From the NCBI RefSeq assembly GCF_900167935.1, contig NZ_FUYL01000002.1, positions 62,001 through 126,000 on the forward strand: a stretch of 64,000 nt of DNA, read 5' to 3'. The position numbers and the translations under genes were made by a program. This DNA is from Maribacter arcticus (lineage in GTDB: Bacteria; Bacteroidota; Bacteroidia; Flavobacteriales; Flavobacteriaceae). The notes under the pieces are model-generated. The model searched no databases, was not told the origin of the DNA, and saw nothing but the letters and a program-made list of their open reading frames with translations. Positions 1,724-12,387 of the stretch are shown piece after piece. Position 1 is the first letter of the stretch. Each line of letters opens with the position of its first letter.

Positions 1724-3094
1724 ATGAAAAATCTTATTACAAAGCCCAAAGCATTTTTGAACAAATTTTTTGGCTTTCTATTTATTGCCTTTCTAATCTC
1801 TTGTACGAAAGAAAAAAAGGAGGAACCTATTGTTATTTCCTCAGAGGTATTACACAATTCAATTGACAAAATTGTGGAAATCATGATTCATGATATTTTC
1901 TCCCCTCCTGTGGCTAGTAGAATATTCGCTTACCCGAATATTGCTGCGTATGAAATAATAGCACAGGTGAACCCTGATTATCAATCATTATCAGGTCAAA
2001 TTACAGACTTAAAACCTGTACCAAAATTAGATACTGTTCAAGGGGTCAATCCGCAGCTAGCCGCTTTAATTGCACACATGAACATCAGTCGACAGTTAAT
2101 TTTCTCAGAAGATAAATTCGATGTTTTGCAAGACAGTTTATTCAATGTATGGAAAACTAAAAATGAAACTGAATTCGAAGCTTCTAAAGCTTATGGATTA
2201 AAAGTGGCAGAACATATAAAAGGATGGATGAGTAAGGATAATTATAGCCAAACTCGTACCATGCCAAAGTTTACGGTAAACACCGATGAAGCTTCTAGAT
2301 GGCAACCTACACCACCTGCATATATGGATGGTATTGAACCACATTGGAGCAAAATACGCCCATTTGTATTAGATTCAGCATCACAATTCAAGCCAATACC
2401 ACCACCACCTTTCTCAATGGAAAAAGATTCAGATTTTTATAAAGAGCTGATAGAGGTATATGATATAAGTAACAAGATAACCGAGAACGGAGACGAGTCT
2501 GAAGAAGTTGCGATAGCAAAATTTTGGGATTGTAATCCGTATGTATCGGTTACACGGGGCCATTTAATGTTTGCTACCAAAAAAATTACCCCTGGCGCAC
2601 ATTGGATTGGTATTACTAAAATAGCCTGTAAACAAACAAATCTTAATTTTGATGACACTGTATTTGCTTACACCAAAACTTCTTTAGCCATAGCAGATGC
2701 CTTTATAAGTTGTTGGGATGAAAAGTATCGAAGTAATTTAATTAGACCAGAAACTCTGATCAACCAACATATAGACGAAAATTGGAAACCAATTTTACAA
2801 ACTCCACCATTTCCTGAATATACCAGTGGGCATAGTGTAGTTTCGGGAGCTGCAGCTACTGCTTTAACGAGTATTTTCGGAGAAGATTTCAGCTTTTCTG
2901 ATGATACTGAAACGCCATACGGACTCCCAATTAGAAAATATACTTCCTTTAATAAAGCAGCAGATGAAGCCGCGATAAGTAGAATGTATGGAGGTATTCA
3001 TTATAGAGCTGCTGTAGAAGTAGGAGTTGGACAAGGTAGAAAAATAGGTGCCCTTTTGAATTCAAAAATTAAAATGGCAGAAAAAATAAAATAG
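1724..3094 (+). CDS. Vanadium-dependent haloperoxidase family lipoprotein (PAP2 superfamily)
   Basis: A 456-residue lipoprotein with lipobox LISC and Cys27. The C-terminal half carries the complete vanadate pocket of vanadium haloperoxidases and PAP2 phosphatases: K334 and R341 in a K-x6-RP motif, S368-G369-H370 in TSGHS, and R420/H426 in SRMYGGIHYR. The K-to-R (7) and R-to-H (6) spacings equal those of the fungal chloroperoxidase. Known members oxidise halides with hydrogen peroxide, and marine Flavobacteriia encode iodo- and bromoperoxidases; others act as acid phosphatases. Halide choice cannot be read from sequence. The protein should be membrane-anchored facing the periplasm or the surface. 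The next gene is another lipoprotein 67 bases downstream on the same strand, possibly co-transcribed. Confidence 0.92.
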   Translation: MKNLITKPKAFLNKFFGFLFIAFLISCTKEKKEEPIVISSEVLHNSIDKIVEIMIHDIFSPPVASRIFAYPNIAAYEIIAQVNPDYQSLSGQITDLKPVPKLDTVQGVNPQLAALIAHMNISRQLIFSEDKFDVLQDSLFNVWKTKNETEFEASKAYGLKVAEHIKGWMSKDNYSQTRTMPKFTVNTDEASRWQPTPPAYMDGIEPHWSKIRPFVLDSASQFKPIPPPPFSMEKDSDFYKELIEVYDISNKITENGDESEEVAIAKFWDCNPYVSVTRGHLMFATKKITPGAHWIGITKIACKQTNLNFDDTVFAYTKTSLAIADAFISCWDEKYRSNLIRPETLINQHIDENWKPILQTPPFPEYTSGHSVVSGAAATALTSIFGEDFSFSDDTETPYGLPIRKYTSFNKAADEAAISRMYGGIHYRAAVEVGVGQGRKIGALLNSKIKMAEKIK

Positions 3095-3161: not shown

Positions 3162-4013
3162 ATGTTAAAAATTTTTTTCTACTGTTTACCTATCATTTTT
3201 ACTTCTTGCACTAATTATGGACAATTAAAGGTAGTTACTGACTTACCATCAAGTTTAGAAGAAATTTCTGGTATGGCCTCCTATAACGATTCTACTATTT
3301 GGGCACTTGAAGACAACGGGAACAAAGATGAAATTTACCAAGTTAACTTTAAAGGCGATATTGTGAAAAGCCTTAAAGTTAAAAATGGGGATAATGATGA
3401 TTGGGAAGATATGGCGATGGACCAGGCAGGTAACCTCTACATTGCCGATATAGGCAACAATGATAATTCTCGAAAAAACTTAGTCATTTATAAAATTCCA
3501 AACCCAACTATTGAACCTGGTGACAAAGTAGATGCTGAACATATTGAATTTAACTATCCTGATCAAACAGAATTTCCGCCTAATGAAGACGGACTTTTAT
3601 TCGATGCTGAAGCACTATTCCATCATGGAAATTCCCTTTATATAGTTACAAAAAATAGGTCTAAACCATTTAAAGGAGAGGCTCATATTTATTCTGTTCC
3701 AGATACTGCTGGCAAATATGAAGCTAATTTAGTTGGGTCATTTACACCTTGTACAGATTGGAAAACATGTCAAATTACCTCAATTGATCTTTCTCCCAAT
3801 GGAGATAAAATAGTAGCTCTTAGTTATGGTAAACTTTTTGTGTTTACTGATTTTACGTGGAATGATTTCTCTAAAGGCAAGCTTCAGGAAATTGATTTAG
3901 GCGCCAGAACGCAGTTAGAATCTGTATGTTTTCTAAATGACAACACACTACTTATTTCCGATGAACGCTCACATGGTACTGGTGGCAATCTCTACTCCTA
4001 TTCTTTAAAGTAA
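3162..4013 (+). CDS. Beta-propeller lipoprotein, SdiA-regulated/esterase-like-phytase type
   Basis: A 283-residue protein with a short signal and probable lipobox FTSC (Cys16). The mature part has repeated strand motifs such as SGMASYNDSTIWALEDNG, DNDDWEDMAMDQAGNLYIAD and IDLSPNGDKIVALSYG, the look of an NHL/SdiA-regulated beta-propeller. DWEDM with an acidic neighbourhood resembles the calcium/substrate site of esterase-like phytase propellers. No enzymatic function is established. Its stop lies 9 bases before the end of the convergent fusion gene. It may share a transcript with the preceding haloperoxidase gene. Confidence 0.75.
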   Translation: MLKIFFYCLPIIFTSCTNYGQLKVVTDLPSSLEEISGMASYNDSTIWALEDNGNKDEIYQVNFKGDIVKSLKVKNGDNDDWEDMAMDQAGNLYIADIGNNDNSRKNLVIYKIPNPTIEPGDKVDAEHIEFNYPDQTEFPPNEDGLLFDAEALFHHGNSLYIVTKNRSKPFKGEAHIYSVPDTAGKYEANLVGSFTPCTDWKTCQITSIDLSPNGDKIVALSYGKLFVFTDFTWNDFSKGKLQEIDLGARTQLESVCFLNDNTLLISDERSHGTGGNLYSYSLK

Positions 4014-4022
4014 TTTTCGCTT

Positions 4023-7000
4023 TTAAAAACCGAAACCTAACCCAAAGGTAAATCTAGGGCCATCTTCACTTGCAAATAGGGCTGTATTGATAGATATAAT
4101 ATCAGAGGCATTCAAAAAGAATCCGCCGCCATATGACGTATGCCATCTTTCAGAACTCAACCCTGGATACCAAACTCTACCATAATCAAACCCTCCAAAT
4201 AGACCCAAGGCCATTGGTAGTAATCTCGTCCGCTTTTTATTTAGGCTAAATCTGATATCCGTATTTTGATAGTATGATGTTTTACCCGTAAATCGTTGAT
4301 TTCTAAAACCTCGTAAACCATCTAAGCCACCAATACTAGCTGCTTGGTAAAACTCATAACCATTACCCATATTAAAATGGGCTTTCCATTTGGTAGCGAA
4401 CACTAATCGTCCGCTAGGAATCAATTTATAATCAAAACTTATTGAAGGAATAATGTATCCATAATTACCTCCATTTGTCGAAATATTGTCTTTAAAACCT
4501 ACTTGTAAAGAGGTTGCCATACCTAAGGTAGGGAAAGCTTCATTATCTCTATTTTCATATGAATATCCTGCATGAGCACCGATAAAATCGCTATTGGTCT
4601 CTTCCCCATTTTGTTGGTAAAATGTATTTATAAATCTATCGTCTGTTTCTTCAACACTAATATCTTGATATGATAGACCTAACTTTACTTTTGCCCCTAA
4701 CTCTCCTCTCCAAACCAAAGAAGGCGAAAATTCCATTTGCCTAAGTTTTACTCGATTGTAATCAAGTTCTAGGTCATCATCTAAATTTATCGTGTTATTA
4801 CCATATCCAAAAAAGTTGACGGCAAAATTAGGACTAGTAAATAGAGCGGTTAATTCTCCGTTCCAATTCTCAAACAAATGTGCAAACTCACCTTGGTATT
4901 TAAAATCAAAACCACTGGTAGCAAAATAATAAGATGCACCAAAAGTATGCTGTTGGGTAAATGGATTCTGTCTAAAACCGTTATAGGTATATGTATTCAA
5001 AAAACCAATTCGCATGCCATCATCAGGATTGAAGCCAAAAGTTGGGATAATTTGATTAAAACTATTTCTAAGTTTAAGCGGCTGATAGGTGTTTAGCTGA
5101 TAATCATCAGACAATTTAACTTTTGCCCCTCCCCTTTTTTCAAATGTATTTTTTTTGCTTTTGTAATCATACAGCGTAATATTCTTACCATTTTCAACTC
5201 TGTAGATATCATTATTATGTCCACCTATAATTCTAACTTTCACCCCATTGAAATTTGATGGATTATTAACTTCAAAGATGTCATCATCATCCAAACCAAA
5301 TACCCATATTTCTTTCGTATCCTCCTTTGTAAAAACTTTATAAAAGAATAGATTGTCTTTCTTATCATTAATGTTTCTAAAGACTTTTACTTCAACTTCT
5401 TTGTCATTAAGTCTGTTTATTTCAAACCAATCGTCCTTATCGGTACCTGCGACAATAGCATACTTATTCAATATTTTATAATATTCTTCAGCAGTTTCTT
5501 GAATATGACTTAAACGTGCTAACAAAATATTCTTTATCTCTACGACGGTTTCATCGTGAACCTCTTTAGGAAAGGCTTTAAATGCCTTGTCAATGGCACT
5601 AGCAGTCAAATTTTCTTGCAAATACTTTGCTTGAGCCAACCATTGACTTTTTTCAGTCTCCCCTAGTAATGTCAAATCTAAAACATAAGTCATTGGTGAA
5701 GAATTGAAACCTTTTACGCTTCTAATATCTTCTTTAAAACCTTCCATAAGTCTTAAACCAGGTATAATACGTGTAGCAATGTTCATTAAAGCTCCGTCTC
5801 CCATTTTAGAATATACTTGGTCACGATCTCTAGGTATTGGTCTATAAACTATTTTTCCCGTTTCCTTATCTTTAAATTCTGCCCATCGCCATTGGTCTAC
5901 GTGCCTATCCCAATCTCCCAAGACCATATCAAATAGCCTAGACCTTAGATATAAATCTTTATCGACTTCATACTTTTCATCATCACGCAAATCTTCAAGC
6001 ATACCATCGGTACTTTTTAATTCATTTGCATAACCGAAACTAGCCAAATTACCATGACCGTCTCCCGTATGTTCTTCTATCATATATAATTCATCACCAA
6101 ATGACTCATTAAATTCTTTTAATGCAGGTTGTTTAGGCACATAATACAAAACAGGATTTGTATGGTAAATACCCACTGCATCTGAGAGAATACCTATGGT
6201 AAAAGGACCGTACGGATGTGACCCGGTATAAAAATCTTGTAATATTTCTTGGGTATAGGTTTCTTTTAAATCCTCAAGTACATATTGATCTTGAAATGCC
6301 ATAGACTGCAAATAAAGCTCAGCACTTTTTTTCAAAGCCCTCATTACATATTCTTTGCCGTCTTTATGCCGAAGCCGCAATGATTTAGATTGGTGCCCAC
6401 CTCCTTTTTTCACAGGCACTAAGCCTCCCTTTAACGTATCAAGATTTACGGTTGGCACCTTCACCTCAGCGCCATAATATTTACGATAACGTTCGCCCCA
6501 AACTCCTTTAAAAAAACCACTTTTATCAATTTCTTTTTTAGTGTAGACCGATGCTTTTACCGAATCGGTAAAATTTGTAGTAAAATCACCTGCATAATCA
6601 ATTTGAGTTGGAGGTAATACTACATTGGTAAATAAAAATTCTTCCTTTTCATCTTCACCTACACCATAAAACCGAACTCTAGAAGAGCCATCAGTATACA
6701 CTTCTAAAGTAGCGTATCCCATTTTACCTGTATTAAATCGTGATCCGTTCAATAGCTTAGTTGTACCTTCTTTTGCTCCAGAACCACTAACAATTTGGGG
6801 CGTATTATTTTCAACTATGTACTGTAATGTATGCTCGTGACCCGATGCAAATATCACTCGGTCAGAAAATTGGGCCAACGTAGTTACCCTCTTCATTAGT
6901 TCTCTATACCGTTTATTATTCAAATCTTCGATTGATGCACCAGATGTATTTCTTAATACATTAATGAACGTACCCAAAACAGGAATTGGAAAGGGTAAGG

Positions 7001-7739
7001 ATTTAGGATAGAATTGCTTTTTTAATGAATATTGCCCACCATGTTCGCCATAACTAATTGTTGGATGGTGCATAGCAATTACAGTGGTTCTATCTCGGTA
7101 ACCTTTTATGGCATCTTCAAGTTCTAATAAAAACTTTTCCCTGCTTTTAATATCGCATTTGTCATTTATGTCCGCCAGCTTATCCCAATTGGTCAAATAC
7201 CACTCTGTATCTATGGTTATAATTGCCACATCATCTCCTATTTCTACCACATCGAGAGGACATCCATTTTCTGGTAGAAAAGGATTTTTTTCCTTTAATA
7301 AATTTTTGATATAATCTTCCTCTCGCTCCAACCCTATCAAACCTTCTGTATACCAATCGTGATTACCTGGAATAAAAAGTGGTCTTCCTTTAAAATTGTC
7401 GAGTGTTTTTAACTGTGCATCTAAATGATTTTTAGCGGTCAAATAGGCCACTGTTGAATCCTTTGGATCCGGCAAACCTGCCGGATAGATATTATCACCT
7501 AGAAAAATAGCAGTACTATTTTTATCTGCAACATCTAATTTATTCTTGAAAATTTTAAGCGCTGGGTTCATACCGTCCATTGGGGATAAGCCGGCATCCC
7601 CTATTAAATAAAAGGTATGTGAAATCTCTTTTAACTCTTTAACATCTACGGCATATTTTTCATCTAAATACTTTGTACCATAAGTAGCACAACCAGTAGC
7701 AAACAATAAAATCAATAGATATGCATAATATTTTTTCAT
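4023..7739 (-). CDS. Purple-acid-phosphatase-like domain + kinase-like middle + Omp85-type outer-membrane barrel
   Basis: A 1238-residue lipoprotein (lipobox TGC, Cys17) in three parts. Residues 40-370 carry all metallophosphoesterase motifs in the purple-acid-phosphatase pattern: GDAG at 47-50, GDNIY at 81-85, GNHD at 125-128, MHH at 223-225 and GHEH at 300-303. Residues about 440-750 are unassigned but look kinase-like: a glycine-rich stretch (GGGHQSKS, 446-453), VMRALKK at 465-471, GDWDRH at 608-613 and RDRD at 637-640. Residues 815-850 include IIGGHNND, which is RTX-like. From about 890 to the end is a beta-barrel of BamA/TamA type with GGLDGLRGFRNQRF and a C-terminal FGLGFGF. It should sit in the outer membrane. 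POTRA domains are absent, so substrate secretion or anchoring of the enzyme domain are both possible. Phosphatase and barrel parts are solid; the kinase-like call is my inference. Confidence 0.85.
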   Translation of the reverse strand: MKKYYAYLLILLFATGCATYGTKYLDEKYAVDVKELKEISHTFYLIGDAGLSPMDGMNPALKIFKNKLDVADKNSTAIFLGDNIYPAGLPDPKDSTVAYLTAKNHLDAQLKTLDNFKGRPLFIPGNHDWYTEGLIGLEREEDYIKNLLKEKNPFLPENGCPLDVVEIGDDVAIITIDTEWYLTNWDKLADINDKCDIKSREKFLLELEDAIKGYRDRTTVIAMHHPTISYGEHGGQYSLKKQFYPKSLPFPIPVLGTFINVLRNTSGASIEDLNNKRYRELMKRVTTLAQFSDRVIFASGHEHTLQYIVENNTPQIVSGSGAKEGTTKLLNGSRFNTGKMGYATLEVYTDGSSRVRFYGVGEDEKEEFLFTNVVLPPTQIDYAGDFTTNFTDSVKASVYTKKEIDKSGFFKGVWGERYRKYYGAEVKVPTVNLDTLKGGLVPVKKGGGHQSKSLRLRHKDGKEYVMRALKKSAELYLQSMAFQDQYVLEDLKETYTQEILQDFYTGSHPYGPFTIGILSDAVGIYHTNPVLYYVPKQPALKEFNESFGDELYMIEEHTGDGHGNLASFGYANELKSTDGMLEDLRDDEKYEVDKDLYLRSRLFDMVLGDWDRHVDQWRWAEFKDKETGKIVYRPIPRDRDQVYSKMGDGALMNIATRIIPGLRLMEGFKEDIRSVKGFNSSPMTYVLDLTLLGETEKSQWLAQAKYLQENLTASAIDKAFKAFPKEVHDETVVEIKNILLARLSHIQETAEEYYKILNKYAIVAGTDKDDWFEINRLNDKEVEVKVFRNINDKKDNLFFYKVFTKEDTKEIWVFGLDDDDIFEVNNPSNFNGVKVRIIGGHNNDIYRVENGKNITLYDYKSKKNTFEKRGGAKVKLSDDYQLNTYQPLKLRNSFNQIIPTFGFNPDDGMRIGFLNTYTYNGFRQNPFTQQHTFGASYYFATSGFDFKYQGEFAHLFENWNGELTALFTSPNFAVNFFGYGNNTINLDDDLELDYNRVKLRQMEFSPSLVWRGELGAKVKLGLSYQDISVEETDDRFINTFYQQNGEETNSDFIGAHAGYSYENRDNEAFPTLGMATSLQVGFKDNISTNGGNYGYIIPSISFDYKLIPSGRLVFATKWKAHFNMGNGYEFYQAASIGGLDGLRGFRNQRFTGKTSYYQNTDIRFSLNKKRTRLLPMALGLFGGFDYGRVWYPGLSSERWHTSYGGGFFLNASDIISINTALFASEDGPRFTFGLGFGF

Positions 7740-7796: not shown

Positions 7797-9014
7797 ATGT
7801 CATATATATTAGATAAGACACAACAGTTTGTGGTCGAATTACTTACCAATCAATTGGATAAAAACTTTTTATACCACAACTTAAGACATACTCAACGAGT
7901 AGTTAAAAGTACTAAAGAATTATCGGAATCATGTTCTCTATCAGATCAAGAAAGAGAGTTATTAGAACTTGTTGCTTGGTTTCATGACACGGGTTATACC
8001 AAAGGAAATAAAGACCATGAAGAGAGTAGTTGTGAAATAGCTGAAGAGTTTTTAACAAAAGAAAGTTATGACCCTAAAGGAATCGAAAAAATTAAAGAAT
8101 GCATTAGGGCCACAAAATGGAATACCAAGCCGACTAATTTAATGGAAGAAATAATTAGAGATGCCGATTCTTCTCATTTTGCACAAACCAGTTATATCGA
8201 AACCACAGAATTATTACGAGAAGAACTAAAGCTTTTAGGTGTTAAAAATTACAGCCAAAAAGAATGGTTACAGGTAAATATACAAGTTTTTAGAACCGAT
8301 CATCAGTACTACACAGATTACGCAAAAAAGTATTGGCTTGAAAAGAAGGATAAAAACTTAAGAAAATTAATCAAGGATAAAAAGTCTGAAAAAAAGATAG
8401 CCAAAAAAGAAAGGCTGAAAGCCAAATTTAAAAGCGAAAGTCCGGATCGAGGTATACAGACACTATATCGTGTAACTTTAAAAAATCACATAGCACTAAG
8501 TGATATAGCAGATACAAAGGCAAACATTTTATTGTCTGTAAATGCAATTATAATCTCATTGGCACTATCTAATCTTATTCCTAAATTAGATAATCCTTCA
8601 AATGACTATTTAATTTACCCTACGGTAATATTCGTATTATTTGCTGTTGTTTCAATGATTCTTGCTGTTTTGGCAACTAGGCCCAATGTAACCAGTGGTG
8701 AATTTACCAAAGAAGATGTTGAGAACAAAAATGTCAACTTATTGTTCTTTGGTAATTTTCATAAAATGAAGTTAGGAGAATATGAGTCGGCAATACAAGA
8801 AATGCTAAAGGATAAAGACTACATTTATAATTCTTTGACCAAAGACCTTTATTTTCTCGGTGTTGTATTGAACAGAAAATATACACTCTTACGATGGACT
8901 TATACTATCTTCATGATTGGTATGATATTATCGGTAATTGCATTTGCAATATCCTTTAAATTCTATGGCCCAGATCGTAAATTAGAGTTATTAAGTCAGG
9001 TGTTATTCTTTTAA
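7797..9014 (+). CDS. HD phosphohydrolase fused to Pycsar-type transmembrane effector domain
   Basis: A 405-residue protein. Residues 20-180 are an HD domain with H31, H63-D64 (WFHDTGYTKG) and D122/D124 (RDADSSH), the metal ligands of this superfamily. A lysine-rich linker (about 181-215) leads to a C-terminal module starting RVTLKNHIALSDIADTKAN, with hydrophobic helices near 244-262, 272-294 and 365-388. That module matches the transmembrane effector of Pycsar anti-phage systems (PycTM-like), which damages the membrane on sensing cCMP or cUMP. HD enzymes often hydrolyse nucleotides, so the fusion could pair a nucleotide-degrading and a nucleotide-sensing part. No pyrimidine cyclase gene is adjacent. 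The gene is divergent from the barrel fusion (57-base gap) and its 3' end overlaps the convergent GAF gene by 12 bases. Confidence 0.88.
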   Translation: MSYILDKTQQFVVELLTNQLDKNFLYHNLRHTQRVVKSTKELSESCSLSDQERELLELVAWFHDTGYTKGNKDHEESSCEIAEEFLTKESYDPKGIEKIKECIRATKWNTKPTNLMEEIIRDADSSHFAQTSYIETTELLREELKLLGVKNYSQKEWLQVNIQVFRTDHQYYTDYAKKYWLEKKDKNLRKLIKDKKSEKKIAKKERLKAKFKSESPDRGIQTLYRVTLKNHIALSDIADTKANILLSVNAIIISLALSNLIPKLDNPSNDYLIYPTVIFVLFAVVSMILAVLATRPNVTSGEFTKEDVENKNVNLLFFGNFHKMKLGEYESAIQEMLKDKDYIYNSLTKDLYFLGVVLNRKYTLLRWTYTIFMIGMILSVIAFAISFKFYGPDRKLELLSQVLFF

Positions 9015-11375
9015 AGCCTCCATCAAATCCTCATAAGTATATGTCTTTTCAGGTTCTTGATCTCTTTTATATAGAATTTCGGCACGTATCGCTTTTAAAC
9101 CAGAAACGCCTTGTAATCCTTCTAATTCTACAATTTCAATCTTATCGGTGAAACAGCCTTTTGACCTTAAGAATTTGATGTATCTTAAATATTCTAACTC
9201 ATCTTTTTTCTGAGAATAAACTATTGAAAGCAATCCTTTTTGAGTAAGACGTTGATTAGTCCCTTTTATAAAAGACTTATCAATTCGCTTTTTAATAACC
9301 TCGTAACGGGCATTATATGTGCCATCAACATCAAATTGTTTTTCATCCATTCTAAAACGGATAGATAATGATGTATTATAAACCAAAATCAATGATGTGG
9401 CATCTAGTGGTACAGGTAATTTTGGTTTTAATGCGTAATGCACATTCTCCATTTCACACATCACCTGCAATTGCCACAATCTAAGATTGTTTAGATATAA
9501 ATTATTGTAGTCTGTATTTTCTGAAATAGAAGCACCTATATACATATTATGCTCTACTCCATCGGTTTTGTAGCGCTCATAATAATGAGGAAACATAGCT
9601 TGGGCACTTTCTTGCCTTTTATCAATTACTGAAGACAACTTTTTATTAATTAACGTAACACTTTCGTCGTAATTCTTTCTATGATCGTAATAGGAATCAG
9701 TACCTATATCAATTTTAGCCTCATAGGTCAAAATATGTTTTTCTAAAACGACATCTGACTTTTTAAGGTGCTCAAAAATTGGAAAAATCTCATCTTTAAC
9801 AAAGTCGAAAATGGATTGCTCACTATTTGTGTACAGCATTTCCTTAATACTTTCAAGATGATTGTTCACTCTAAAAATTAATTCTTCATAGATAGGTAAA
9901 TTCCATTTTTTCAATGCAATTACCAATATGTCATTAATTTCAGAAAGTTGAATCATCAAATCTCTTTGAATAGCCAAATTTCTAGCCTTAGAGGAGTCTT
10001 TAATATCAATTTGTCCAAATAATGGGTATACATCCTTAAAAACAATTTCCCTAAAAGTAGGTGATTTACCTTCTAGCTGGTCGTTCATAAATCGTTTGGC
10101 TTCCTCTTGAAATTTCCAATAAACAGATGAGTGTACAGAAGTACATTCATTTTGAATTATAGCGTCTATTCTATTATTCTCTTCATTACTATTTCGTACT
10201 AATGCCGATACAATATATGGCAAAACATCATCAAGCTTTTGAGCATTTACTCCATTAAGAACCCCCTTTTTCTCAGAAACTATTTCCAAAATCCCTAAGA
10301 GTTTATTTTCATAGGCAATAGGTGCGAAAATTGCACTTTGAACTCCTTGCCTTTTCAACCCTTCATAAGGTTCCATACCACCAGCTAAATCGGCCATGCG
10401 ATTAACATCGGTAATCGCAAAATATGAATTTTCCTTAATTAATTTTCTATAAGACTCTTCACAAAGCGCACTCTTACAACCTACTATTACCTCTCCGTTT
10501 AAAAGATAACTTTCAAACCCCATGCCTGCAACTGCTTCGAACTGATCTTTTCTAGCGTTGAACGTTGCGAACCCCACTCTAATATTTGGCAACTTAAAGA
10601 ACGACTTAAAAGTCTCTTGAAGTTCTTCCGTAAAATTATCTGGAGCTAAATGGTCCTTAGAAATCAATTTTGACTTTATGTCAGAAATTGCCTGTTCCAT
10701 AGTAACATCGAACAAGTTCGCAATTACAAACCCTTTAGATATAAAACTTTCAGGTGGAATTTTATCCATCCAAAGTTTAACATCATTTGGATTTTCTAAC
10801 AATTCATTGATATTTTCTTGTGTTATCTTTTTAGATTTTTCGGTAGGAATTATCTTTATAAAATCAGCATTATATAAAACGCGATAGTGACGCATTACTC
10901 CATTAGCATCTGGTATATCATAAAAGTATGGACGACTAAAGTCTAAGTGAAAACCATAATAGAAATTTAATATGACCACACAGCTCATAATATAATCCAT
11001 ATCGTCGCCAAGACTTCGCAATTCTGGCTCATACTCCTTACCCGCTTCACTAATAATTTTCTGAAAGCGTTTCGAAGATTTTATGATAGTATCTTGATAA
11101 GGTAACGTAGCCACCTTTATTTCATTAGTACTTAAGGCTTCGGTAAATGTATCTTGTAAAATACGATCAATTACTTCTTTATATTTTTCTAATAATGTAA
11201 AATCTGAAAATCCGTCACGTAGTTCTGGATAATCGATTTGAGCATTTAATATTCTCTCGGCAGTAGCGGCTAAAAATGGATCATCACCTTCTAAATGTTC
11301 ATCGTACTTCTTCAGAAGTTCTTCAAAACTAATGAGGTGCTTTACCGGCATTATCTTTCTCTCGTGCTGATTCAT
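9003..11375 (-). CDS. Large GAF-domain protein of unknown function
   Basis: A 790-residue soluble protein with no signal peptide or membrane helix. Residues about 245-395 form a GAF-like sensor domain, with TFNARKDQFEAVAGMGFESY and APIAYENKLLGILEIVSEKK as typical strand motifs. The N-terminal 240 and C-terminal 390 residues are helix-rich and not recognised. I see no kinase, cyclase or diguanylate cyclase motif. A second ATG at codon 9 (MPVKHLIS) follows GAGAAAG at a ribosome-binding distance and may be the true start (then 9003-11351). Its 3' end overlaps the HD/Pycsar-effector gene, and a metallophosphoesterase gene starts divergently 112 bases away. It may sense a small ligand for this neighbourhood, but that is inference from position. 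Confidence 0.8.
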   Translation of the reverse strand: MNQHERKIMPVKHLISFEELLKKYDEHLEGDDPFLAATAERILNAQIDYPELRDGFSDFTLLEKYKEVIDRILQDTFTEALSTNEIKVATLPYQDTIIKSSKRFQKIISEAGKEYEPELRSLGDDMDYIMSCVVILNFYYGFHLDFSRPYFYDIPDANGVMRHYRVLYNADFIKIIPTEKSKKITQENINELLENPNDVKLWMDKIPPESFISKGFVIANLFDVTMEQAISDIKSKLISKDHLAPDNFTEELQETFKSFFKLPNIRVGFATFNARKDQFEAVAGMGFESYLLNGEVIVGCKSALCEESYRKLIKENSYFAITDVNRMADLAGGMEPYEGLKRQGVQSAIFAPIAYENKLLGILEIVSEKKGVLNGVNAQKLDDVLPYIVSALVRNSNEENNRIDAIIQNECTSVHSSVYWKFQEEAKRFMNDQLEGKSPTFREIVFKDVYPLFGQIDIKDSSKARNLAIQRDLMIQLSEINDILVIALKKWNLPIYEELIFRVNNHLESIKEMLYTNSEQSIFDFVKDEIFPIFEHLKKSDVVLEKHILTYEAKIDIGTDSYYDHRKNYDESVTLINKKLSSVIDKRQESAQAMFPHYYERYKTDGVEHNMYIGASISENTDYNNLYLNNLRLWQLQVMCEMENVHYALKPKLPVPLDATSLILVYNTSLSIRFRMDEKQFDVDGTYNARYEVIKKRIDKSFIKGTNQRLTQKGLLSIVYSQKKDELEYLRYIKFLRSKGCFTDKIEIVELEGLQGVSGLKAIRAEILYKRDQEPEKTYTYEDLMEALKE

Positions 11376-11487: not shown

Positions 11488-12387
11488 ATGTCATCGGATA
11501 GTAGACTAAATAGAGCTTATGAAAATGCCAAGATTATTCCGTTTGACAACAACTCTAAATTTATACTTTTTAGTGATTGTCACAGAGGTGACAACAGTTT
11601 TGCCGATGAATTCGCCAATAATAGAAACATCTATTTTCACGCGCTAAAATTTTACTTTTCAGAAGGATTTCAATATTGCGAGCTTGGTGATGGTGATGAA
11701 CTTTGGGAGAATATTAATTTTGCATCCATATTTGAAGCCCATAAAAATATTTATAAACTTTTAAAGCAATTTCATTTAGAACATAGACTACATATGATTT
11801 GGGGAAACCATGATATGGTCTATAAAGATGAAGACTACGTAAAGAAACACTTGTCAAGTTATTTTGAACCCATAGAAGACAAAGACAAATCACTTTTTGA
11901 AGGCATAAAATACCATGAAGCCCTAATTTTAAAACATTCAGACACTCAGCAAGAAGTTTTTCTAACCCACGGCCACCAAGCAGATTGGTGGAATTATACC
12001 TTTTGGCGTTGGGGTAGATTTTTAGTGAGGGTACTCTGGAAACCATTACAGGTTTGGGGTATTGCTGACCCAACTTCACCGGCAAAAAACTATACTGAAC
12101 TCATAAAAGTTGAACGTCGTATAAAAAAATGGATTCTTAAAAATAGCTTAAAAGTAACGGTGGTTGGCCATACCCATAGGCCCCGTTTTCCCGAACCAGG
12201 CGATATTCCTCTTTTCAACGATGGTAGTTGTGTGCACCCAAGAAGTATTACAGGTATTGAAATAGAAAAAGGCAATATTTCTTTGATTAAATGGCAGATA
12301 AATACCACCGACGATGGTACACTTCGTGTTGTTCGTATTCTTTTAGAAGGGCCACAAAAATTAGAAGATTACTTAGAAAAGTTATAG
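11488..12387 (+). CDS. Calcineurin-like metallophosphoesterase
   Basis: A 299-residue cytosolic protein with the full dimetal phosphoesterase motif set: SDCH (D30, H32), LGDGDE (67-71), WGNHDM (105-110), LTHGHQ (159-164) and VGHTHRP (226-232). The arrangement is closest to UDP-2,3-diacylglucosamine pyrophosphatase-like and related nucleotide phosphoesterases. The hydrophobic/aromatic insert WWNYTFWRWGRFLVRVLW (167-184) could bind a lipid or the membrane. The substrate is unknown. It is divergent from the GAF gene and is the second phosphoesterase in this neighbourhood. Confidence 0.88.
   Translation: MSSDSRLNRAYENAKIIPFDNNSKFILFSDCHRGDNSFADEFANNRNIYFHALKFYFSEGFQYCELGDGDELWENINFASIFEAHKNIYKLLKQFHLEHRLHMIWGNHDMVYKDEDYVKKHLSSYFEPIEDKDKSLFEGIKYHEALILKHSDTQQEVFLTHGHQADWWNYTFWRWGRFLVRVLWKPLQVWGIADPTSPAKNYTELIKVERRIKKWILKNSLKVTVVGHTHRPRFPEPGDIPLFNDGSCVHPRSITGIEIEKGNISLIKWQINTTDDGTLRVVRILLEGPQKLEDYLEKL

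Follow-up and report, generated by a model that had tools for sequence, protein, structure and literature searches.

The window examined here, a stretch of 64,000 nucleotides of Maribacter arcticus, a marine member of the Bacteroidota, carries a minus-strand gene whose large product combines a domain of phosphatase type with one of kinase type, for which no family name exists, and with a barrel of the outer membrane (Table 1). In the AlphaFold2 model of residues 39-1238, computed with 78 sequences (predicted local distance difference test score, pLDDT, 85; predicted template modelling score, pTM, 0.83), the chain is divided into a phosphoesterase (about 41-378), a middle domain (about 393-758), a stretch of short strands (760-876) and a barrel of 16 long strands (893-1236). 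The N-terminus was read as a signal with a lipobox-like motif, and in 47 of 78 long relatives a loose lipobox pattern falls within the first 35 residues. The nearest named relatives returned by a search with DNA patterns belong to Maribacter and other Flavobacteriaceae. The motifs quoted in the original prediction, which gave no strand, all sit where it had placed them, those of a phosphatase (GDAG 47, GDNIY 81, GNHD 125, MHH 223, GHEH 300) as well as those of kinase type (KKGGG 444, with GGG at 446-448, VMRALKK 465, GDWDRH 608, RDRD 637). Between the Metallophos and Omp85 matches of the 1238-residue protein, Pfam gave nothing above a cut-off.

Modelled alone (residues 395-770, 81 sequences; pLDDT 87, pTM 0.88), the middle stretch begins with strands 440-445 and 451-458, which flank GGG, and strand 463-471, which carries R467 and K471; next come helix 495-506, in which D502 lies, strand 550-556, closed by E555/E556, and further helices, GDWDRH directly follows helix 594-607, and RDRD stands behind two strands within 617-636. 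Such an order of elements is that of protein kinases. A Foldseek search of the PDB with this domain returned 364 matches at E ≤ 10, five of them at E ≤ 1e-3; CtkA (6.2e-4), HipA (6.9e-4), PI4K-II alpha (6.9e-4) and COQ8A (8.8e-4) head the list, on which Rio2 (1.1e-3) also stands. Of the 364 rows, the best 50 can be recognised as kinases or proteins resembling them, apart from two pre-40S ribosome rows with the chain unnamed, and the template modelling (TM) scores of these rows range from 0.13 to 0.49. Judged by structure prediction and fold search, residues 395-757 or thereabouts very probably adopt a kinase fold, so that what had been offered as an inference from motif order is borne out and the modelled fold is not one unrelated to kinases.

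The nearest kin of the domain are CotH by sequence profile and CtkA/HipA by fold. Comparison by HHalign with a profile of 29 CotH domains (30 loci fetched, one without a usable open reading frame) gave E 1.4e-4, a probability of 52% and a score of 40.1 over 224 columns, whereas none of 100 column shuffles scored above 26.3 and the reversed profile reached 14.7; W610-D611 were aligned on the WD of CotH and D638/D640 on its DxD. When a profile of 18 members was searched against the PDB, CtkA came first (E 0.0078), aligned at its DRH loop GNFDRHNGNW, and the remaining six listed matches were unrelated and weaker. Among the same 18 members, CotH PF08757 was listed for none at a maximum Pfam E-value of 10 and HipA PF07804 for one (E 0.15). 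Taken together, model, Foldseek and profile comparisons place the domain in the kinase fold, with CotH as nearest sequence kin here, and outside the Pfam CotH and HipA models. Among the relatives named beforehand, CotH thus holds by profile and HipA by fold, while Fam20 is weak: Fam20C, the Golgi casein kinase and a kinase of the eukaryotic secretory route, appears at Foldseek rank 44 (4kqa, E 0.03). New kinase families of Legionella have been grouped with FAM20/CotH (PMC9758233).

For residue conservation, 132 unique middle domains were aligned, partial ones being excluded. As 78 of these came from loci chosen with DNA patterns for WDRHxxQW and PxPxDRDxxF, little can be concluded from the perfect motifs in them, and the other 54 served as the test. 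Fully kept in all 54 are D502, D609, W617 and D638; R467 and K471 are found in 52 each, GGG in 51-52, E555 and H613 in 51 each, R612 in 50 and R639 in 53. Homologues lacking D611 and D638/D640 had been named in advance as telling against a kinase; these three residues are retained in 49, 54 and 52 of the 54, respectively, leaving five homologues without D611. On this pattern the middle domain is probably catalytic.

Table 1. Features of the outer-membrane protein gene and its surroundings in the window.
Feature	Residues	Position in window	Strand	Remark
Whole gene, outer-membrane protein		4023..7739	minus	single open reading frame, 1238 amino acids: signal, then phosphatase and kinase-like domains, a linker of beta strands and the barrel of 16 strands
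Putative signal with lipobox-like ATGC, Cys17	1-17	7689..7739	minus	authors' reading
Calcineurin-like / purple-acid-type metallophosphoesterase domain	41-378	6606..7619	minus	full metal-ligand motifs
Predicted kinase-fold domain	395-757	5469..6557	minus	matched by no Pfam model
GGG	446-448	6396..6404	minus	turn between strands 1 and 2, glycine-loop position
VMRALKK	465-471	6327..6347	minus	third strand
GDWDRH	608-613	5901..5918	minus	catalytic-loop position, then Q616
RDRD	637-640	5820..5831	minus	DFG/CotH DxD position after beta hairpin
Short repeated beta strands	760-876	5112..5462	minus	join kinase-like domain to barrel
Omp85-type barrel, 16 strands	893-1238	4026..5063	minus	
HD-PycTM protein (HD domain and Pycsar-effector transmembrane domain)		7797..9014	plus	divergent neighbour, linked gene
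SdiA-regulated/YjiK-like propeller lipoprotein		3162..4013	plus	convergent here
790-residue protein		9003..11375	minus	no own Pfam match at E 0.1; GAF domain in 6 of 9 scanned family members
PAP2/vanadium-haloperoxidase-type protein		1724-3094		

The N-terminal domain is a phosphatase domain, as had been claimed: Pfam Metallophos matches residues 43-240 above its cut-off (E 1.1e-5), and the five metal-ligand motifs are accompanied by the GDxxY tyrosine, the features by which purple acid phosphatases are recognised. In 34 homologues that had not been selected by motif, the ligands are kept in high numbers (D48 29, D82 33, Y85 30, N126 31, H224 34, H301 33, H303 30). The best PDB sequence matches of the domain, weak ones (E 0.009), are human TRAP/purple acid phosphatase, and in a Foldseek search with the full-length model GAP50, which we take to have a metallophosphatase fold, was aligned with the N-terminus at rank 5. 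A second gene for a calcineurin-like phosphoesterase lies 3.7 kb away (window 11488-12387); it found no match in the flanks of 80 relatives, which seldom reach so far.

The barrel, too, is of the Omp85 type that had been proposed, having 16 long strands and, in a partly low-confidence loop between strands 11 and 12, a GLRGF with the position and look of the Omp85 L6 motif; in the full-length Foldseek search it matched the barrels of BamA, TamA and the SAM complex. Of the sequence models, Pfam Omp85 matches residues 988-1168 with E 3.8e-5 and 23.8 bits, slightly below its cut-off of 24, and NCBIfam Omp85_fam gives 66.7 bits against 200. Pfam found no POTRA domain in the protein, and Omp85 architectures without POTRA are on record (PMC4104836). 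If strand 1 of the modelled barrel starts in the periplasm, the outer loops comprise 96 residues, the inner turns 39, and both termini are periplasmic. A precedent is PlpD, another Omp85 protein whose N-terminal part is an enzyme: according to protease and disulfide tests, this enzyme resides in the periplasm, a compartment described as being without ATP (PMC11116518). By the number of strands, the loop lengths and the PlpD precedent, both enzyme domains would lie in the periplasm, and the term 'surface protein' of the original prediction is not borne out.

The kinase-like domain was found in 22 of 247 sampled Bacteroidia genomes, that of the window included, and the whole protein was matched in 16 of 21 near genomes, again with its own. 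Besides the three-part form, the middle domain occurs alone in proteins of about 400-425 amino acids with nothing else recognised (L021-L026, L180), with the strand linker in secreted-looking proteins of about 500-560 amino acids (three at L174, two at L175, one at L179), several of which have lipobox-like starts by eye and one of which, at L175, is shortened by start choice, and with linker and barrel, without the phosphatase, at eight loci (L176, L177, L178, L181, L182, L194, L200, L201). Among 72,556 plasmid records the domain is present in five (Hymenobacter three, Persicobacter one, Parabacteroides one), where four copies carry the label hypothetical protein and the fifth has no annotation; in viral contigs no relatives were found. 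The three and two barrel-less kinase-domain genes of L174 (6129-11148) and L175 (5436-8775) form clusters near genes for topoisomerase IB and the phosphatidate phosphatase APP1. A lipid-phosphate theme based on APP1 was dropped, since both genomes belong to one genus.

The genes next to that of the outer-membrane protein recur with it. In the fetched flanks of 80 loci of close relatives, short contigs included, the propeller was found at 60, HD-PycTM at 54 and the GAF protein (the family of the 790-residue protein) at 49, and in several distant relatives the propeller gene lies directly upstream in the same orientation. Class-wide there were 34 domain matches; the surroundings of 32 were fetched in 29 regions (20 + 9), and of the remaining two matches one is that of the window and one lies at the end of a contig. 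In the set of 20 regions, all with the barrel, HD-PycTM is present in 16, the propeller in 13 and GAF in ten; in the set of nine, HD-PycTM and propeller occur in L176 only, and PPK1 in none. A full-length HD-PycTM was detected in 23 of 247 genomes (a 24th match, in G073, spans the HD part only), namely in 19 of the 22 with the kinase domain as against 4 of the 225 without it (Fisher 1e-21, relatedness ignored). With distances taken from one match start to the other, 18 of the 22 have it no more than 10 kb from the kinase-domain gene, where chance would give 0.15 genomes; in G122 the two genes are on different contigs. The HD-PycTM gene also adjoins the stand-alone kinase-domain gene in four of six loci (L023-L026), where its HD motif residues are altered and, in the case of L023, Pfam detects PycTM only. 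The VCPO/PAP2 neighbour was considered as a further member of the group and not counted, given its presence in the flanks of 29 of the 80 close relatives and in none of the 20 distant regions.

PPK1, the polyphosphate kinase by which polyphosphate is made, is the other recurrent partner. Within 10 kb of the kinase-domain gene it was found in eight of the 22 genomes, or nine if G122 is counted, where it stands beside HD-PycTM; four families are represented, and 0.21 genomes would be expected by chance. A PPK1 cluster, of which one member was checked with Pfam, occurs in 10 of the 20 regions of the barrel set, and nine of the ten places agree with matches of the PPK1 profile, L196 being the exception. 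L197, L198 and L200 share a one-strand order of HD_PycTM, PPK1, propeller and (phosphatase-)kinase-barrel, and in L201 PPK1 runs into the propeller gene. The copy in the gene group is one of two in G099, G194, G222 and G250, and in G077 and G207 both copies belong to it. This adjacency in some relatives hints at phosphate chemistry in the cell envelope. Human purple acid phosphatase ACP5 is reported to cleave polyphosphate, and yeast PPN1 is calcineurin-like (PMC6973038); together with the weak TRAP match and PPK1 in the locus in four families, these precedents make polyphosphate a possible donor, and a functional link to polyphosphate is conceivable, though somewhat short of probable. Separately, G161, a genome without the kinase domain, has a PPK2 gene at a distance of about 2.3 kb from one of its HD-PycTM genes (L206, 10135-10875).

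The domain make-up, the conserved residues, the kinase fold in the model and the gene linkage are computed results, and the interpretation towards which we lean from them, if only slightly, is that of a periplasm-facing outer-membrane phospho-enzyme in a group handling phosphate or polyphosphate across the envelope. The barrel, probably together with an N-terminal lipid, would hold the two soluble enzyme domains beneath the outer membrane, and the protein would be the outer-membrane member of the linked group of HD-PycTM, propeller lipoprotein, GAF protein and, in four families, PPK1, whose most likely task would be such handling. The kinase-like domain would phosphorylate some component of the envelope, drawing the phosphate from polyphosphate or from leaked ATP, and the phosphoesterase would remove phosphate or trim polyphosphate. 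The periplasmic side, catalytic activity, a polyphosphate link in function and any target are what we infer here, and the same applies to the 'opposed' phosphatase and kinase activities of the original prediction. A more specific course, in which envelope phosphorylation is run by polyphosphate, PPK1 making it inside, HD-PycTM linking it to the inner membrane, the outer-membrane protein using it in the ATP-free periplasm as phosphate donor to modify envelope targets and the phosphoesterase trimming it or reversing the mark, seems improbable as a whole.

A number of results weigh against the phospho-enzyme, and several of them would suit a kinase-like domain that is an inactive scaffold, binding a phosphate compound (nucleotide, polyphosphate or phospholipid head group) and thereby controlling phosphatase or barrel. 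ATP is not expected in the periplasm, and no Pfam kinase model matched any of the 18 members at a useful E-value. Position 616, usually the catalytic, metal-binding Asn, is Gln in 49 of 54 homologues and Asn in five, four of which are without D611. The five that lack D611 (L174, L177, L178, L195, L199) imply that dead variants may exist; L177 and L178 are also without D640, and L195 and L199 have the full three-part architecture. What speaks for the phospho-enzyme is that the HD-PycTM gene was not found in any of these five regions, nor by profile search in the genomes of L177 and L178 (G092, G126), as though the HD-PycTM partner disappeared together with catalysis. Against a mere scaffold, D609 and D638 stand in 54 of 54 homologues and D611, H613, D640, R467 and K471 in 49-52, stand-alone forms included, and we consider it rather unlikely. 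Other adverse points concern the kinship itself: the TM-scores of the five best Foldseek matches are low (0.26-0.49, root-mean-square deviation 9.5-17 Å), the CotH alignment begins just past the third strand and so leaves the glycine loop outside that test, and membership of the HipA family by sequence had to be rejected, as the profile from 25 HipA_C loci (27 had been fetched, of which two were broken and excluded) scored 16.0, inside its shuffles (up to 25.9). With a PDB rich in kinases, another alpha/beta fold with a DRH motif might resemble one by chance; however, the top matches are atypical kinases of the HipA/PI4K type, profile evidence for CtkA and CotH is independent of them, and the sequence of motifs and of secondary-structure elements is as in kinases, which makes a chance resemblance very improbable.

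The gene linkage is likewise not without exceptions that count against the phospho-enzyme. HD-PycTM occurs without the kinase domain in four genomes (families f10 and f70) and the reverse holds in three; the remaining 13 of 22 genomes, among them all seven of the window's own order, have no PPK1 close by, and in G155, one of the 13, the PPK1 model gave no match anywhere; moreover, the genomes are related and the counts therefore not independent. The barrel might instead be the working part, assembling or exporting an envelope component like other Omp85 proteins while the N-terminal domains merely process or gate cargo. It is a clear Omp85 barrel with an L6-type GLRGF motif, and an assembly role has been called the most conservative hypothesis for Omp85 subfamilies of unknown function (Heinz & Lithgow, 2014; PMC4104836), but the kinase-like domain also occurs without any barrel, and those forms, with HD-PycTM beside the stand-alone one at the four loci mentioned, suggest that it has a role of its own, so that this explanation appears unlikely. 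Patchy presence in the class and matches of HD-PycTM to the PADLOC PycTM and 2TM effector models (best E 1.9e-21) could point to a defence system with HD-PycTM as Pycsar-like effector and the outer-membrane protein as sensor or receptor block. Yet outer-membrane protein, GAF protein and propeller had no PADLOC match (a cyclase was not searched for), the neighbours recur across many Flavobacteriia species and PPK1 is a partner elsewhere; defence is accordingly given very little weight.

To our knowledge, hardly any kinases are known to act in the periplasm, since this compartment has no ATP. In many Bacteroidia, a family with the kinase fold now seems to be anchored in the outer membrane and turned towards the periplasm; its fusion to a phosphatase and, in several bacterial families, its linkage to PPK1 make the question of an envelope kinase without ATP directly testable, and a kinase-fold family without a matching Pfam model is added. 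By literature and domain comparison, the parts are of known kinds, the kinase-fold family has no name, and the combination and its gene context are new. The original prediction had regarded phosphatase and kinase-like domains on one barrel as novel; this holds in part, as phosphatase and barrel together were already described in 2014, whereas literature searches, confined to open-access papers, listed no account of an Omp85 protein with a kinase domain or of the gene group. New here is the linkage of the kinase-domain gene to HD-PycTM and PPK1 in Bacteroidia.

Among known systems, the phosphatase-barrel pair corresponds to the Omp85 'Metallo' subfamily (Heinz & Lithgow, 2014; PMC4104836), with which the protein shares an N-terminal PF00149 joined to an Omp85 barrel, an assignment made by domain content and not by sequence comparison; the section on this subfamily names no kinase-like middle domain. 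That census labels PF00149 a metalloprotease, whereas Pfam describes it as calcineurin-like phosphoesterase, and the subfamily thus gains a concrete working hypothesis. TRAP/ACP5 resembles the phosphatase domain in the motif set including the GDxxY tyrosine and is its best PDB sequence match, but the match is weak and TRAP/ACP5 has neither barrel nor kinase domain. CotH (PF08757) is similar by profile-profile match and has catalytic-loop and DxD-type motifs in common with the middle domain, which differs in not being listed under PF08757, in its GDWDRHxxQW and PRDRD signatures and in its anchoring by a barrel. HipA and CtkA (PF07804) are the best fold matches, CtkA also the top PDB profile match at the DRH loop, but they lack a barrel and HipA shows no profile similarity above shuffles; Fam20C is listed by Foldseek, but the match is weak and the protein eukaryotic. 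PlpD, finally, likewise has an enzyme domain N-terminal to an Omp85 barrel, and differs in that its enzyme is a patatin lipase, that it has a POTRA domain and that it forms a homodimer.

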